NCBI GenBank assembly: GCA_026392815.1
Contig: JAPLBI010000181.1
Coordinates: 1 to 10,267 of the forward strand
Direction: 5' to 3'
Length of the DNA: 10,267 nucleotides
Origin: Actinomycetota bacterium
GTDB taxonomy: Bacteria > Actinomycetota > Actinomycetes > Nanopelagicales > Nanopelagicaceae
Numbering within the stretch: the first letter of the stretch is position 1; each line of letters begins with the position of its first letter. The translations under genes were made by a program, and so were the position numbers. Positions 2,020 through 8,305 of the stretch are shown piece after piece. The notes under the pieces were generated by a model. The model did no database searches, had not been told where the DNA came from, and worked only from the letters and a program-made list of their open reading frames with translations.

Positions 2020-2400
2020 TTATTTGCGCTCTTCGGGAATTATTGTTACTGCAAAATAGAGCACTGGAATTGCAAGTAATAACAATGGAATTGCACCGAT
2101 TAAGAAGTCACCTTCGAATTGATATTTAACAACGCCCAAAACAATTAAGTTCGCAAAGACTGCCGGCCCGCGGCCCCAATTCTTTCTCTGCGCAAATGCA
2201 CGCCCACATGCCAATAGCCCAATGCCACCTAACAATGAGAAGAGCAGCACTCCAGCCAATGGCGGGATCTCGCGATCTTCATGGGTAATTCCCATGACTC
2301 CGACCCAGATGCCTAGGGATAACACGACTGCACCTTCTATATAGAGAAGGGCTGACGCGATGGAGCGCTTACGCGCTTGCTTGGCAGGATCGGCGCTCAT
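2020..2400 (-). CDS. Small integral membrane protein of unknown function
   Basis: I do not recognise a family. The 126-residue product starts with a polar, basic N-terminus (MSADPAKQARKRS). Four hydrophobic segments follow, at about residues 14-35, 46-67, 78-92 and 96-117, and it ends in a charged tail (PEERK). This is a typical small four-helix inner-membrane protein with no visible catalytic motif. An in-frame ATG at 2433-2431 would add 11 residues but would overlap the divergent gene at 2419. The start at 2400 is preferred because a TACCCT -10-like box lies eight bases before it, fitting a leaderless mRNA. The gene converges with the SDR gene (17-bp gap, no clear terminator) and diverges from the tad cluster, so nothing ties it firmly to either. 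Confidence 0.7.
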   Translation of the reverse strand: MSADPAKQARKRSIASALLYIEGAVVLSLGIWVGVMGITHEDREIPPLAGVLLFSLLGGIGLLACGRAFAQRKNWGRGPAVFANLIVLGVVKYQFEGDFLIGAIPLLLLAIPVLYFAVTIIPEERK

Positions 2401-2404
2401 AGAC

Positions 2405-2412
2405 AGGAAGGG
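2405..2412 (+). promoter_or_regulatory. Ribosome binding site of the degenerate GGDEF gene
   Basis: AGGAAGGG lies six bases before the ATG at 2419 and supports that start. The same bases overlap the candidate -10 box of the opposite-strand gene. Confidence 0.65.
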
Positions 2413-2414
2413 TA
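2409..2414 (-). promoter_or_regulatory. Candidate -10 box for leaderless transcription of the membrane-protein gene
   Basis: On the minus strand TACCCT (matching TANNNT) ends eight bases before the ATG at 2400, and no Shine-Dalgarno sequence precedes that ATG. This spacing would place the transcription start at or next to the start codon. No clear -35 element is visible. Confidence 0.35.
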
Positions 2415-2418
2415 GCGC

Positions 2419-2853
2419 ATGATTTTTTCGCATGATGGATTACGAGATTCATTAACGCGCGTAGCTGCGCCACCTTTCTTCTATGAGAGTTTAAAAAGAG
2501 AGATCTCACTTTCCGAGCGGAGTGAAAGCACAATTACTGCGGTTACGTTCAGATTGATTTCAGAGCAACCGATTTATGACTATCCGCTAGTTGCCTTCTC
2601 CGAAATTGCCGGGAGAGCGCTCCGCTTAGAAGATCACATAGCGCGTATGGGCGTCAACAATTTTGTCATTTTAATTACTGGGGATAATGATGTAGCCGAA
2701 CAAATCTGCGCTCGAATATCTTCACAGTGGACCTTGGAAGGAGTTCCTGGGATCTCCCTACATTACGCATGGATCTCACACGAAGTAGGCGAGAGCGCCC
2801 TAGATTTCTTAAATCGCCTTGATGGGCAAGAGTTGAAAACCACATCTTTCTAA
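2419..2853 (+). CDS. Degenerate GGDEF-domain protein, possible c-di-GMP receptor of the tad pilus locus
   Basis: The 144-residue product is essentially one GGDEF-type fold with no sensor or membrane segment. It opens with DSLTRV...F (residues 10-20; family DxLTGLxNRRxF). The region DHIARMGVNNFVILITGD (residues 72-89) aligns with the D-xxx-RxGGDEFxxxL core. It continues with AEQICARI, the helix after the core, and a SxxxG-like end (HEVGESALDFLNRLDGQ). The catalytic signature is GVNNF (78-82) instead of GGDEF, and the metal-binding Asp and nucleotide-binding motifs of the first half are missing, so diguanylate cyclase activity is not expected. RLED (69-72) ends exactly five residues before the signature, the position of the RxxD inhibitory c-di-GMP site. 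It is followed after 60 bp by tadA. Alternatively it may be a purely structural partner that no longer binds c-di-GMP. Confidence 0.68.
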   Translation: MIFSHDGLRDSLTRVAAPPFFYESLKREISLSERSESTITAVTFRLISEQPIYDYPLVAFSEIAGRALRLEDHIARMGVNNFVILITGDNDVAEQICARISSQWTLEGVPGISLHYAWISHEVGESALDFLNRLDGQELKTTSF

Positions 2854-2901
2854 TTCATCCACAGGTTTCTGCCGGCTCATATTTAGTAATTTGGATAGTT
2901 C

Positions 2902-2913: not shown

Positions 2914-3954
2914 ATGGAAATGGATATCGCCTTTGGGCCTATTGCAGAGTTCATTTCTGATAAAACCATCGAAGAAATCTGGATAAATTCACCGCAAAGA
3001 ATATTCATCGCCCGAGCAGGAAAGAGCGAGTTAACAAATTTAATTCTCTCGCCTGAAGAAGTCTCTCAACTAGTAGATCGCCTACTTATCTGGAGCGGTA
3101 GACGTCTTGATCTTTCACACCCATTCGTTGATGCACGACTTCCGGATGGAAGTCGCCTCCACGTGGTGATTCCTGAAATCACCGCTGAACACTGGACGGT
3201 TAACATCAGAAAACATCTAATGCGCCATTTGTCGTTACAAGATTTAGCTCAACGCGGCGCCTTAACCGCTTCTATGGCGGTGGCGTTAACCAATTCCGTC
3301 CGCGCTGGGTTGAACATTTTAGTAAGCGGTGGAACCCAATCTGGAAAAACAACAATGCTCAATGCACTTGTATCGGCAACTCCTTTGGGACAGCGAGTTA
3401 TCACAATTGAGGAAGTCTTCGAATTAAAGCCGGTATTACCTGACTTGGTTGCGATGCAGACTCGCAGTGAAAATCTCCAGGGAGAAGGAGCGATTCCACT
3501 TAGAAAACTAATTAAGGAAGCGCTACGCATGCGACCTTCGCGCATAGTTATTGGAGAAGTTCGCGAGGCCGAAGCGTTAGATCTATTAATTGCCCTTAAT
3601 TCCGGGCTCGCCGGAATGGGAACCTTGCATGCAAATTCCGCTAGAGATGCGATTATCAAATTACAAACTCTGCCGTTATTAGCCGGCGAAAACATTTCAC
3701 ACAAATTTATTGCGCCGACAGTGGCATCGGCTATTGATCTAGTTGTACAAGTCGGACTTGCCAGCGACGGTACGCGAAGAATTCAAGAGATCGCCGCAGT
3801 CACAGGTCGCTTTGAAAATGATCGCGCTGAAATAGAAACCCTCTGGAAATGGGATGGCAGTAAATACATCCGCGGCGTTGGCTCTATCGGTAATGAAGAG
3901 AAATTCTCGGCTGCTGGAATTCCACTTGCCGATTGGTGGAGCAAAGATGAGTAG
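2914..3954 (+). CDS. tadA: Tad pilus assembly ATPase TadA/CpaF
   Basis: This is the hexameric secretion ATPase of the type II/IV family that powers Tad/Flp pilus assembly at the cytoplasmic face of the membrane. The 346-residue protein has a short N-terminal domain and then the RecA-like core. Walker A is GGTQSGKTT (139-147). The Asp box is TIEEVFEL (164-171), and Walker B is RIVIGEVR (210-217) with Glu215. The His box ends TLHANS (237-242) and is followed by AIIKLQTL. Two departures from consensus are visible: Gln replaces Gly within Walker A (usual GGTGSGKTT), and the His box reads NSGLAGMGTLHANS, lacking the first His of the usual GHxGS. Catalytic Lys and Glu are intact. It is at the short end for TadA. 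The start at 2914 has no ribosome site but a -10 box six bases upstream. The stop overlaps the tadB start. Confidence 0.93.
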   Translation: MEMDIAFGPIAEFISDKTIEEIWINSPQRIFIARAGKSELTNLILSPEEVSQLVDRLLIWSGRRLDLSHPFVDARLPDGSRLHVVIPEITAEHWTVNIRKHLMRHLSLQDLAQRGALTASMAVALTNSVRAGLNILVSGGTQSGKTTMLNALVSATPLGQRVITIEEVFELKPVLPDLVAMQTRSENLQGEGAIPLRKLIKEALRMRPSRIVIGEVREAEALDLLIALNSGLAGMGTLHANSARDAIIKLQTLPLLAGENISHKFIAPTVASAIDLVVQVGLASDGTRRIQEIAAVTGRFENDRAEIETLWKWDGSKYIRGVGSIGNEEKFSAAGIPLADWWSKDE

Positions 3955-4708
3955 AAAACAGATGAGTCCGCCAAGAAACCTCTCGCTAAATGTTCGCAAA
4001 AATCAATACCTGAAAGTAGCAAGTTCTTTCGTAGCTTCATTCTTTATGGTCTATCTACTCTCTGCATCCATTGTTATCGCTCTAATCTTCGGCTTTTTAC
4101 TCTCCATAATTACCTTGTTAATTTCAAAGAAGAAATCTGATAAAGATGCCGCCGCTATAAGTGCTGCATGGCCGGAAGTGATTGATCACCTGGTAAGCGG
4201 AATCCAGTCAGGTCTTTCGATAACTGAATCTCTAATTGGTTTAACGACGAGAGGTCCGTTAATTCTCCGGCCATACTTTGCAGAATTTGAGCTCAAGATG
4301 CGCACGCACGGTGATTTCAATCTAGCGATTTCGGAGTTGAAGCAGCGATGTGCCCAACACAGCAGCGATCAAATCTTTGAAGCAATTGCAATTTCCAAAA
4401 CCTTAGGCGGATCCGAACTGCTTAACATTTTGCGCACCGTGGGAACCTTCCTGCGTCAAGATTTAGCGCTACGTCGTGAGATTGAAGTTAAACACGGCTG
4501 GATTAAGAACTCCGCTCATCTTTCTGCCGCCGCTCCTTGGCTTCTTCTGCTCTTACTATCGACACAGCCAGCAACATCTCGCGCGTTCTCTACACCTACA
4601 GGCGTGCTAATTCTTCTAATCGGTTTGTCCATGACAGCGATCGCATATGTATGGATGAACCGTTTGGGTCGCCTTCCCGAGCTACCGCGTGTTTTTGGTA
4701 GCGCATGA
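3947..4708 (+). CDS. tadB: Tad pilus platform protein TadB (T2SSF family)
   Basis: This is an inner-membrane platform protein that partners TadC and contacts the TadA motor. The 253-residue product has a basic N-terminus and two adjacent hydrophobic segments (about 22-40 and 41-60). The cytoplasmic T2SSF domain covers about 72-185 (WPEVIDHLVSGIQSGLSI, then SELLNILRTVGTFLRQD). Two C-terminal membrane segments follow (about 190-206 and 217-236). The start is ATG at 3947 inside ATGAGTAG, overlapping the tadA stop by eight bases, with GGAG five bases upstream. A longer in-frame reading from 3854 would run through the end of tadA and is rejected. A second ATG at 3962 is possible. Assignment as TadB rests on order after tadA and the repeated LxxxIxxGxSxxxxL pattern typical of the family. 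Confidence 0.9.
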   Translation: MSRKQMSPPRNLSLNVRKNQYLKVASSFVASFFMVYLLSASIVIALIFGFLLSIITLLISKKKSDKDAAAISAAWPEVIDHLVSGIQSGLSITESLIGLTTRGPLILRPYFAEFELKMRTHGDFNLAISELKQRCAQHSSDQIFEAIAISKTLGGSELLNILRTVGTFLRQDLALRREIEVKHGWIKNSAHLSAAAPWLLLLLLSTQPATSRAFSTPTGVLILLIGLSMTAIAYVWMNRLGRLPELPRVFGSA

Positions 4709-5502
4709 AGTATTCCGTTGGAATTCCAGTTCTCTTTGCCGCCTTGGGTTCGCTAACCCTGATCTTAAGTTCGAGTCCTAGAAGTGCGTTAAATAGCCAC
4801 ATAGCAAATTCCAAGGACCGAGGGTCGATTCAAAATCGCCTCCGTGAAATAGGAAAAGACTCTCCAGAAAGTTTCTTTGAATTTAGAAGTAAGCAACTTG
4901 CAAACTCATCACTTGTTGGTGCAGCTATAACCTTGATTTTGATCTTTTTAGGGAAGTCGCCAATCTCTATATTGCTACTTGGTTTCTTAGCTGCGATATC
5001 AACTTATGTTTTTGTGGATCGCAGCCTGAGCAAAAAAGTAAACCTTCATAAGTTGCGAGTTGAATCAGAGTTTCCCGCAGTTATTGAGATGTATTCGTTA
5101 GCCATGTCAGCAGGCGAAACGCCTTTGGCAGCGATGGAGCGGATAGGAAAAACGGCCACTGGTTCAATGGCTATTGAATTCAACAAGGTAGTAGCACTCG
5201 TTAAATCTGGAAAACCATTCCATGTTGCTCTAGATGCGATGGGAAGAGATTTAGATTCCATTGCAATCAGGCGTTTTGTCGACTCACTAATAATCGCAAC
5301 CCTGCGTGGTGCACCACTAATCGATGTGCTTCAACGCCATGCGCAAGAGGCTCGCGAACTCCAAAGGAACCGAGTTTTGGGAGCAGCCGCTAAGGCTGAG
5401 ATATCGATGATGGTTCCGGTGGTCTTTCTCATTCTTCCAATCTCTATCCTTTTCGCGCTTTGGCCTTCGCTAGCTAACTTAAATCTCTTCAGCAGTGCCT
5501 AG
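4705..5502 (+). CDS. tadC: Tad pilus platform protein TadC (T2SSF family)
   Basis: This is the second inner-membrane platform protein of the pilus machine. The 265-residue product has an N-terminal membrane segment (about 4-22), two central ones (about 68-83 and 86-104) and a T2SSF domain at about 122-235. The domain shows EFPAVIEMYSLAMSAGETP, then VVALVKSGKPFHVALDAMG and RRFVDSLIIATLRGAPLIDVL. A final membrane segment (about 235-254, VPVVFLILPISILFALWPS) is the usual TadC ending. Its ATG overlaps the tadB stop in ATGA (4705-4708), indicating translational coupling; no separate ribosome site is evident. Confidence 0.92.
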   Translation: MKYSVGIPVLFAALGSLTLILSSSPRSALNSHIANSKDRGSIQNRLREIGKDSPESFFEFRSKQLANSSLVGAAITLILIFLGKSPISILLLGFLAAISTYVFVDRSLSKKVNLHKLRVESEFPAVIEMYSLAMSAGETPLAAMERIGKTATGSMAIEFNKVVALVKSGKPFHVALDAMGRDLDSIAIRRFVDSLIIATLRGAPLIDVLQRHAQEARELQRNRVLGAAAKAEISMMVPVVFLILPISILFALWPSLANLNLFSSA

Positions 5503-5589: not shown

Positions 5590-5874
5590 ATGGTAAAAGT
5601 TAAATCTAAGGCCCTAGAGCCAGCAGAATCTGCAGAGTTAGTTCAAGTAAGTACTGGTGGATTAAATAAAGTGATAATTGATAGGTACCTATCTCTGCAA
5701 CAGATTCAAAGCCGATACAAATCGGCGCTTGCATCCGAGAGAGGTGATGTTCCTGGTTGGGTGCTTGTAGTTCTAATGACTACCGGTTTAGTCACAGCGA
5801 TATGGACAATTGCCGCACCTCGCTTGACTAGCATCCTTAAGAATTCATTAGATGCGATGAACGGTATCCGTTGA
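5590..5874 (+). CDS. Flp-like small pilin candidate (actinobacterial tad locus)
   Basis: The 94-residue product occupies the position of the small DUF4244/Flp-like pilin between tadC and the TadE-like genes. A long polar N-terminus (about 50 residues) is followed by ERGDVPG and a single hydrophobic helix (about 57-76, WVLVVLMTTGLVTAIWTIAA), then a short amphipathic tail (PRLTSILKNSLDAMNGIR). Cleavage after Gly52 would leave about 42 residues, the size of a mature Flp subunit. The site is not canonical: position +5 is Trp, not Glu. The leader is longer than usual. A GTG at 5671 with GGTGGA nine bases upstream would give a 25-residue leader and is a possible alternative start. The ATG at 5590 has only a weak AAAGAG upstream. 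The stop overlaps the next gene in TGATG. Confidence 0.7.
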   Translation: MVKVKSKALEPAESAELVQVSTGGLNKVIIDRYLSLQQIQSRYKSALASERGDVPGWVLVVLMTTGLVTAIWTIAAPRLTSILKNSLDAMNGIR

Positions 5875-6233
5875 TGTATTCACTGAGGCGATTCATCGCA
5901 TCCGAAAAGGGAAGCGCAGAGAGCGCAATGGTCTTGATTCCGCTGCTCTTTCTATTTCTCTGCGGTGCGCAGTTAACTTCAACGGTCTTCATTAGAAATT
6001 TTGAACTTGCGAAGGTACAGAGCGAGGCATCAACAAGGTCGATATCTAATGAGTTGCAGAGCAGTGACTCAGTAATTGAAATAGATACGCCTGATCGCTT
6101 TCAAAAATTGCGCCTACTTGTTGTTAGAAAGCAAAGAGATCTTCCAATTATTGTTCCAGGCTTGGCCAGTTTCTTGGGCGGTTCACTAAAAAGCGAGGTC
6201 ACGGGTATCTCTGTCATGGAGGTTGTCCCATGA
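5874..6233 (+). CDS. TadE-like minor pseudopilin
   Basis: The 119-residue product has a basic N-terminus (MYSLRRFIASEKGSAES) followed by one hydrophobic helix (about 18-37, MVLIPLLFLFLCGAQL) and a soluble extracellular part with no Cys. This is the layout of TadE/TadF-type pseudopilins that sit at the pilus base or tip. The Glu after the putative cleavage Gly14 falls at +3 rather than +5. The start is taken as ATG 5874, which shares one base with the preceding TGA. The TTG at 5871 would add one residue. The stop overlaps the next ATG in ATGA. Family assignment comes from N-terminal shape and position rather than a strong motif. Confidence 0.72.
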   Translation: MYSLRRFIASEKGSAESAMVLIPLLFLFLCGAQLTSTVFIRNFELAKVQSEASTRSISNELQSSDSVIEIDTPDRFQKLRLLVVRKQRDLPIIVPGLASFLGGSLKSEVTGISVMEVVP

Positions 6234-6634
6234 AAAGTATTATCAGATGCGAAAGAGGCAGCGCTACAGTTGAATTTGTTGCACTTGCCCTTCCGCTATT
6301 TGTGCCGATTATCTTCTTTCTACATCAATTCGCATCAGTAAGTGGCCAGGAAGAAATTGCACGAACATTAGCGCGTGAAGGTGCACGGGCCTTTGTAACT
6401 AGTTCAAATCAATCAAGTGCAGCTGCGGCTATGAACGCAGTAATTTTTAGAGCTGGACGAGAACTTGGCTTAAAGGAAGATGAATTTGAACGAATGGCGA
6501 TAAATCTCGAATGCAGCAGTTCGCCTTGTTATTCGCCAAATGGAAAAATTGTTGTCACTGTTAACTTTGGTGCGTCCAAAGAATTCCGCGCGGTCACCGC
6601 TTCAGCACAGGAATATATATCTCCATGGAGTTAA
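6230..6634 (+). CDS. tadE: TadE-family pseudopilin
   Basis: The 134-residue product shows the clearest TadE signature in the cluster. CERGSATVEFVALALPLF gives Gly10 with Glu at +5 and Phe at +6, the canonical prepilin-peptidase motif, followed by one membrane helix to about residue 30. After it comes a helical stretch (QEEIARTLAREGARAFV) typical of TadE, and a beta-rich end with CSSSPC, two Cys four residues apart that could form a disulfide outside the cell. The ribosome site GGAGG (6218-6222) lies seven bases before the ATG, and the start overlaps the previous stop in ATGA. The end overlaps the next gene by ten bases. Confidence 0.85.
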   Translation: MKSIIRCERGSATVEFVALALPLFVPIIFFLHQFASVSGQEEIARTLAREGARAFVTSSNQSSAAAAMNAVIFRAGRELGLKEDEFERMAINLECSSSPCYSPNGKIVVTVNFGASKEFRAVTASAQEYISPWS

Positions 6635-7179
6635 GGCGCAGCCCCATAAAACTTCTTCTCAGTGAATCGGGATCCATCTCACTGGTGGTGATGGCTCTTT
6701 TTATAGTTTCACTTTCATCGATATTCGTAGTAACGGATGTTGCAGCTGTCGCAATTGCAAAGCGCTCCTTAACCCAAGCAAGTGAAGCAGCAGCACAACG
6801 TGGAGTTCGTAATCTTGATAAAACCTCTTACTACCGTGGTGAATTTGATCTGACTACACAAGCTCAAAATCTATTTGGGGTTGGACCATCGGATCCAGGT
6901 GTTCCGATTGATTGTTCTAAAGCTTTAGGGGATGCGGAAGGCGCACTGGCCGATTGGAGTAGTGGTCCAAATAGCTTGCGAAGAGTTGAGATTACTAATT
7001 TAAAGATAAGTCGAATTGAGTGTGACGGTTTTGGAATTCAACTTGTTACCCAAGCAATCGCACAACTTCCTTTAGTACTTCCATTTTTCAATCTTGACTC
7101 TGTTGAAATATCTTCGAAAGTCTCGGCCACTAACACAAGATCGAAAGGCTTTTCGCCCTTCGGTATAAGGATTTTCTAA
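6625..7179 (+). CDS. TadG/Rv3654c-like pilus-associated protein
   Basis: The 184-residue product begins with a short polar stretch and [19 protein letters not shown] (residues 14-32), a signal-like hydrophobic helix. It then has [21 protein letters not shown] (40-60), the alanine-rich helix seen at the start of TadG-like and Rv3654c-like proteins that close actinobacterial tad loci. The remainder looks extracellular and contains two Cys (97 and 133). No Glu is found at +5 after Gly16, so processing by prepilin peptidase is uncertain. It overlaps tadE by ten bases and its own ribosome site is weak, suggesting coupled translation. It is the last gene of the pilus operon; prfB starts 19 bases later. 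Confidence 0.78.
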
Positions 7180-7198: not shown

Positions 7199-8305
7199 AT
7201 GGCCCGCGAATACGATCTAGAGATAGCTGCAATCGGTGCAACGCTTCTCTCTATCGAAAAGGTCTTGGATCTTCCTAAGTTAGAGGCCGAGGCTGTTGAA
7301 CTTGAAGCAGCTGCCGGTGTTCCGAATCTTTGGGATGACCCGGAAGCGGCGCAGAAGGTAACGAGTAAGTTATCTCGAGTTCAAAGCACAATTGCGCGAT
7401 TGAAAACACTTCGTCGCAGAGTTGAAGATCTGCCGATCTTGTTTGAATTAGCTGGATCGGAGCCAGATGGTTCTGGATTAGCGGATGCGGAAATCGAATT
7501 GGATTCTGCAGTTAAGGCGATTAGCGACTTAGAAGTTACGACTCTGCTTAATGGTGAATATGACGACCGCGATGCTTTGATAACTATTCGCTCTGAAGCC
7601 GGTGGTGTTGAAGCTGCCGACTGGGCGGAAATGTTGATGCGTATGTATCTGCGTTACTGCGAACGCCATGAATTCAAAGTAGATGTACTTGAAACTTCAT
7701 ATGCTGAAGAAGCAGGAATCAAATCAACAACCTTCCGCGTTGGCGCACCTTATGCATATGGAACTTTATCTGTAGAGCAAGGCACTCATCGTTTAGTTCG
7801 CATCTCTCCATTTGATTCACAATCTCGCCGCCATACGTCATTTGCTGGCGTGGAAGTTGTTCCTGTAGTTGAACAGAGCGATCACATTGAAATTGATGAA
7901 AAGGAAATCCGTGTAGATGTTTATCGTTCATCTGGCCCTGGTGGGCAAGGCGTAAATACAACCGACTCAGCGGTTCGCTTAACCCATATCCCAACTGGAA
8001 TTGTTGTCTCCTGTCAGAACGAGCGCTCACAGATTCAGAACAAGGCAACGGCCATGGCCGTGTTGCAATCAAAGTTGTTGGAGCGTCGCCGCCAAGAAGA
8101 ACAAGCCAAGATCAATGCTTTGAAGGGCGATAATTCAGGCTCTTGGGGTAACCAGATGCGCTCTTATGTTTTAGCGCCATATCAAATGGTTAAAGATCTT
8201 CGTAATAACCACGAAACTGGAAATACATCAGCAGTATTAAATGGTGAAATTGATGATTTCATCGAGGCGGGAATTCGCTGGCGCCGTTCTAGTTCCAGTA
8301 ATTAA
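7199..8305 (+). CDS. prfB: Peptide chain release factor 2
   Basis: RF2 recognises UGA and UAA stop codons in the ribosomal A site and triggers release of the finished protein. The 368-residue product has the N-terminal helical domain (about 1-110), the codon-recognition tripeptide SPF (203-205) that marks RF2 rather than RF1, and the catalytic GGQ (248-250) in [16 protein letters not shown]. Length is normal. The gene is read in one uninterrupted frame: the in-frame UGA and +1 programmed frameshift that autoregulates prfB in Escherichia coli is absent. The start at 7199 is supported by the upstream -10 box and the [13 protein letters not shown]-terminus. It sits upstream of ftsE/ftsX/smpB, an order conserved in Actinobacteria. 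Confidence 0.97.

Follow-up and report, generated by a model that had tools for sequence, protein, structure and literature searches.

A 10,267-nucleotide stretch of an Actinomycetota genome of the family Nanopelagicaceae (assembly GCA_026392815.1, contig JAPLBI010000181.1), hereafter called the window, carries at 2419..2853 on the forward strand an open reading frame (ORF) of 144 amino acids (aa), here named dGGDEF, directly ahead of the genes of a Tad pilus. On balance, its product is probably a stand-alone, catalytically dead GGDEF protein that uses its inhibitory site (I-site) as a receptor for cyclic diguanylate (c-di-GMP) and is dedicated to the adjoining pilus. This had been proposed in an initial annotation of the window, which also gave the position and length of the ORF correctly. 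It is the best available reading and is partly supported, namely by the conservation of residues throughout the family, by a control within the lineage, and by the joint absence of dGGDEF and the pilus from individual genomes. As such, dGGDEF would be a variant of the known dead-GGDEF I-site receptors and not a separate kind.

Fold, lost active site, and retained I-site residues

The GGDEF-like fold, named beforehand in the initial annotation as a point on which the proposal could fail, was predicted by AF2 (pLDDT 94.8), and structure comparison of the model with Foldseek and VIA agreed on a PleD-like GGDEF fold. PelD was not among the best 50 Foldseek or VIA matches of the model, which carries no weight as evidence. 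The sole Pfam match of dGGDEF was GGDEF (PF00990) at 21.5 bits, i.e., below the curated cut-off of 23.8, which was exceeded by two orthologs (33.9 in genome G015, 25.4 in G002); the NCBIfam cyclase model DgcS matched at 2.6e-10, far under its cut-off. The protein is apparently soluble and consists of this single domain.

Residue conservation was determined in an alignment of 69 members chosen for diversity (mean column identity 26%), which omits near-duplicates, some further orthologs, the most divergent members of group g29 (L086, L151), and profile rows that were not fetched, and in a closer alignment of 23 orthologs (A1). The signature GG[DE]EF occurs in none of the 69 members and reads GVNNF in the window (residues 78–82; 2650..2664, forward strand). 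At the fourth signature position, 40 members have E, 18 have G, five have T, and two, one of them the window protein, have N; the second Asn of GVNNF is common only to close relatives (L004, L005, L041). The metal- and guanine-binding region D-x-D-x-F-K...N-D is missing, in agreement with the initial annotation, and the column aligned to the metal Asp (column 45) is variable in the family. Hence, neither GG[D/E]EF nor the metal Asp of an active diguanylate cyclase is present; PleD and DgcB, whose GGDEF domains are available in c-di-GMP-bound form, are active enzymes with GG[DE]EF, whereas dGGDEF lacks the signature.

The residues of the primary I-site are retained. RLED occupies the position of the RxxD motif (residues 69–72; 2623..2634, forward strand), exactly five residues (HIARM) ahead of GVNNF as annotated, and R69 and D72 align with RxxD of active cyclases in profile comparison. 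The expected conservation of RxxD held for the Arg, which is invariant (69/69), but not for the strict Asp, as the fourth residue of the motif is D in 55 members, the remaining 14 having E, and strict RxxD is kept in 17/23 rows of A1. A further Arg, R99 (2713..2715, forward strand; R in 66/69 members), corresponds in the best profile match (7e6g) to the Arg carried by the next helix and is by alignment equated with PleD R390 and PelD R402. The combined pattern R..[DE]..xR was present in all 121 sequences formed by the window protein and the 120 relatives listed of 1238, with D in 81 of the 121. Only five columns of the 69-member alignment are invariant (D10, T13, R34, R69, and R76). R27 (63/69) lies on the same predicted helix as R34 (69/69), and a conserved AP is found at residues 17–18, where canonical domains carry N-R.

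For PelD of B. cereus, R363, D366, and R395 are each reported to be required for c-di-GMP binding, as measured by isothermal titration calorimetry, and for biofilm formation (PMC7112168). PelD is like dGGDEF in being a dead GGDEF protein with RxxD and a third Arg (R363/D366/R395 versus R69/D72/R99) and in being encoded with the surface machine concerned, since it controls Pel export (PMC7112168). It differs in its GAF domain, its membrane location, and its role in polysaccharide export, dGGDEF being a bare 144-aa domain beside a Tad pilus. With R69, D72, and R99 as candidate ligands, c-di-GMP binding becomes a question testable on one purified protein. In PopA of Caulobacter, too, a dead GGDEF domain uses its I-site as a receptor, as proposed for dGGDEF; PopA differs in its receiver domains and its role in cell-cycle proteolysis.

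The control within the lineage was provided by the canonical GGDEF proteins. The own genome encodes one, whose signature is intact and whose N-terminal part is long and hydrophobic, so that a c-di-GMP synthase, which the initial annotation had presupposed, is present. Among 29 canonical GGDEF loci compared within the lineage (not GGDEF domains at large; L001 568-1965 and L118–L137 among them), 26 have PTGS, PSGA, or a similar sequence without Arg in place of the I-site motif, and the remaining three carry RPVD in frames of 605–619 aa, which are of another kind. Because the cyclase lacks the I-site Arg and the dead protein has it, catalytic site and I-site reside on separate proteins.

Two other explanations of the motif were rejected. 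That RxxD is dictated by the fold is opposed by the 26/29 canonical loci of the lineage without the Arg. A decayed pseudogene with a chance RxxD is opposed by the invariant Arg in all 69 members together with strong purifying selection, the ratio of nonsynonymous to synonymous substitution rates (dN/dS) against three relatives being 0.063, 0.098, and 0.067.

Linkage of dGGDEF to the Tad locus

The motor ATPase gene tadA (2914..3954, forward strand; 346 aa, CpaF-like) starts 60 bases past the dGGDEF stop codon and matches PF00437 (T2SSE) at 1.6e-37, with a weak FtsK_SpoIIIE match and no MshEN. TadA, a T2SSF platform protein, and TadE/pilin-like genes follow in the order of an actinobacterial Tad locus. 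A profile built from the 23 orthologs of A1 matched 113 of 151 genomes of the same family; after removal of six rows in open frames longer than 400 aa as canonical GGDEF proteins, 111 rows from 110 genomes were retained. In at least 72 of these 111 rows, a T2SSE match follows 82–892 bases downstream on the same strand (between match edges), and this synteny spans at least 10 genera.

The association claimed from the single locus was borne out further by joint absence, with exceptions in two genera given below. Among the 83 good genomes (≥90% complete, ≤5% contaminated), 61 had both dGGDEF and T2SSE, four dGGDEF alone, five T2SSE alone, and 13 neither (Fisher 3e-8, uncorrected for phylogeny). 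Both were jointly absent from good genomes of five genera; in the own genus (19 good genomes), 13 had both and six neither. These six are all single-contig genomes, and each retains M137, a small hydrophobic and presumably membrane protein that is the usual left neighbour of dGGDEF and is encoded divergently in the window (2020..2433, reverse strand). The region downstream of M137 was read in four of the six (not in G150 and G162). In G121 and G014, prfB stands directly after M137, and dGGDEF and tad are therefore absent as a single block; G132 and G138 have different ORFs after M137. A canonical GGDEF match was found in 12/13 good genomes with neither gene, which indicates that the dead protein tracks tad and not the cyclase.

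Eight of the genomes with T2SSE only were re-read, of which G195 is among the five good ones (G080, G092, G101, and G147 were not covered). In G104, which belongs to the same genus as G080 and G092, a divergent dGGDEF and M137 lie upstream of tadA and had been missed by the profile search. In G072, G086, and G109, the T2SSE gene encodes a different TadA-like motor (34–35% identity to the window TadA), and dGGDEF was not found in the stretches fetched around it. In G195, G133, G139, and G172, tadA is present and dGGDEF was not found in the stretch fetched.

Proposed mechanism and competing explanations

In the proposed mechanism, c-di-GMP would be supplied by the membrane cyclase without an I-site and would occupy R69, D72 (or E72, as some relatives have), and R99, probably in the form of the intercalated dimer bound by PelD and PleD. 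For this mode of binding, a further domain is described as having to contribute a second Arg (PMC3838380). Ligand binding would then alter the dimerisation of dGGDEF or its docking on the pilus machine, the simplest docking target being the short TadA motor, whose extension or retraction it would set. No c-di-GMP-binding domain was found in TadA by Pfam, and the Tad pilus of Caulobacter is extended and retracted by one and the same motor (reviewed in PMC11656802), which would make a switch acting on TadA economical. In Caulobacter, c-di-GMP drives Tad pilus dynamics and high levels promote retraction; the authors suggest c-di-GMP-binding effectors, and the available portions of the paper name no Tad effector (PMC6581867). 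If the reading is true, dGGDEF would be a Tad-dedicated effector of the kind inferred from that work. In the accessible parts of the literature on Planktophila, Nanopelagicales, or acI together with c-di-GMP or pili, and on GGDEF together with Tad, neither a publication on the dGGDEF family nor a described c-di-GMP receptor dedicated to the Tad machine was found.

Input of c-di-GMP to a PilB-type motor is known from FimX, which has a GGDEF domain, and from MshEN (PMC11656802). FimX differs from dGGDEF in its size (about 700 aa), its REC-PAS-GGDEF-EAL architecture, and its use of the EAL domain for c-di-GMP binding, and MshEN is a domain within the motor protein; neither of these arrangements was found here. 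In most lakes, the acI members of the lineage are reported to be more abundant than any other bacteria (PMC5301498), and in this lineage the family offers a small, motor-adjacent effector candidate.

More tentatively, the functions of GGDEF domains may be split in a minimal circuit, in which a membrane cyclase lacks the I-site and a dead domain consists of the I-site only and serves as the Tad-dedicated receptor. With searches that detect known domains only, EAL was found in 12/151 genomes, in none of 20 genomes of the own genus, and not in the own genome; HD_5 was found in 0/151 genomes, and PilZ in 0/151 over the cut-off, with one weak match. From these domain contents and the lack of the I-site Arg in 26/29 canonical loci, c-di-GMP seems to be made without product inhibition at an I-site and without a recognised phosphodiesterase, and in the own genus the circuit would have a single recognised output, the Tad pilus, with neither a recognised phosphodiesterase nor a PilZ receptor. 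It would be a natural example in which a cyclase is encoded by one gene and the matching allosteric site by another.

Several observations weigh against dGGDEF as a Tad-dedicated receptor. The second cross-linking Arg, which we take to be PleD R313, would fall on column 31, where R occurs in only 17/69 members and the window has L; for this reason, the second Arg would have to be supplied by a docking partner or by another dGGDEF copy, in which R27 or R34, both on the same predicted helix as column 31, could stand in for it. RxxE replaces strict RxxD in 14/69 members and 6/23 rows of A1. YfiN is reported to keep RxxD, to lack two further arginines, and not to bind c-di-GMP (PMC3838380), and RxxD by itself is therefore no proof of binding. 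In nine loci read in two genera (g31 and g40), dGGDEF stands beside M137 with unrelated genes downstream, of which argininosuccinate synthase (L078, L079) and an exonuclease with transporter parts (L085) were identified; in g31, the T2SSE gene lies 18.6–21.3 kb downstream in four genomes and in the remainder on another contig or out of view. Of the 83 good genomes, four have dGGDEF but lack a T2SSE match. PF00437 also matches other motors, e.g., with matches under E 1e-100 in some genomes, so that the co-occurrence table does not reflect Tad alone, and because of the synteny the joint loss is partly one event. Finally, a strong canonical GGDEF match is missing in 3/65 good dGGDEF genomes, all three being assemblies of about 100 contigs: G120 and G137 have no match, and G203 has one at 9.4e-8 that is probably the dead protein itself. 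The receptor reading of the initial annotation stood with respect to fold, I-site residues, synthase, and Tad linkage, but a strict RxxD is not universal.

The strongest competing explanation is one that we regard as unlikely: dGGDEF may be a ligand-free scaffold, i.e., a docking or assembly factor of the Tad machine whose conserved arginines form a protein interface. Actinobacterial tad loci often have TadZ/Ssd at the position that such a scaffold would perhaps fill, and the location ahead of tadA, the joint absence with tad, the D-to-E changes at the I-site, the scarcity of R at the PleD R313 position, and the conserved AP at residues 17–18 all agree with it. Against it, the conserved residues are equivalent to those by which PelD binds c-di-GMP, and the I-site Arg, missing in nearly all canonical loci of the lineage, is not needed for the fold.

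Two further explanations are improbable. dGGDEF could pair with the I-site-less membrane cyclase and confer product inhibition on it in trans. The distribution of RxxD between the dead protein and the cyclase and the lack of EAL in the searched genus genomes and of HD_5 in all 151 are consistent with this, and c-di-GMP is described as able to cross-link two GGDEF domains (PMC3838380), but the canonical GGDEF protein remains in 12/13 good genomes with neither dGGDEF nor T2SSE, the dead protein following tad. It is equally doubtful that dGGDEF is a transcription-level or other regulator unconnected to the pilus motor, with the tad neighbourhood a chance of the M137–prfB slot. The nine g31 and g40 loci would fit this, but it is opposed by the joint absence with T2SSE in five genera, including the six single-contig genomes, and by Pfam, which found no DNA-binding domain in the single-domain fold.

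Family distribution, neighbouring genes, and minor observations

The nearest named record, with 98% identity, was a complete chromosome, that of Candidatus Planktophila lacus MMS-21-148, and the same scan returned one other record, a metagenome-assembled genome titled Streptomycetaceae (88%). A search of 60 genomes with the single protein (E ≤ 0.001) matched 21, i.e., the own genome, 19 of the same genus, and G039 of another family, both matches of which fall within long frames that were interpreted as canonical GGDEF proteins. A draw at the level of the order yielded dGGDEF in 101/151 genomes (E ≤ 1e-8), and because every listed genome belongs to the same family, it says little about other families. 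The protein database search (E ≤ 1e-5) returned 1238 proteins; among the 120 listed, nearly all named ones are titled GGDEF domain-containing protein. Genome G006 has two dGGDEF copies on two contigs (L007, L027), which may be paralogs or stem from mixed strains.

Downstream of tadA, all on the forward strand, follow a tadB-like platform protein gene (3944..4708; named by position and conservation in other loci, no Pfam match at E 0.01), the start codon of which is uncertain as the ORF is listed from 3854, and the platform protein gene tadC (4705..5502; PF00482, 4.6e-15). The next genes encode a small Flp-pilin-like protein (5590..5874; named by position, no Pfam match, counterparts in other tad loci), a TadE-like protein (5871..6233; named by position, no Pfam match), TadE (6230..6634; PF07811, 7.3e-7), and a TadG-like protein (6625..7179; PF13400 at 0.0037, under the cut-off). 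The tadG-like gene is followed by prfB (7199–8305). A promoter and terminator scan gave nothing exceeding shuffled sequence.

Between the dGGDEF stop codon and tadA, many relatives carry a DnaA-box-like 9-mer, TTATCCACA, which has the form TCATCCACA in the window (2855–2863). Counted in loci with strong A1 scores only and ignoring kinship, it occurred with at most one mismatch within 150 bases in 19/47 loci versus 2.6 expected from mononucleotide shuffles.

The contents of the M137–prfB slot vary and comprise the dGGDEF–tad module, nothing (G121, G014), or genes of cysteine-rich repeat proteins (L139 in G132, L141 in G138), which look zinc-ribbon-like by eye and were read in stretches without prfB in view. 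M137 itself was matched in 17 of the 18 loci read and had no Pfam match. Its listed start overlaps that of dGGDEF by 15 bases (2419–2433), which an inner ATG of M137 would abolish. The g29 and g33 loci read have M137 immediately upstream of dGGDEF and in the same orientation.
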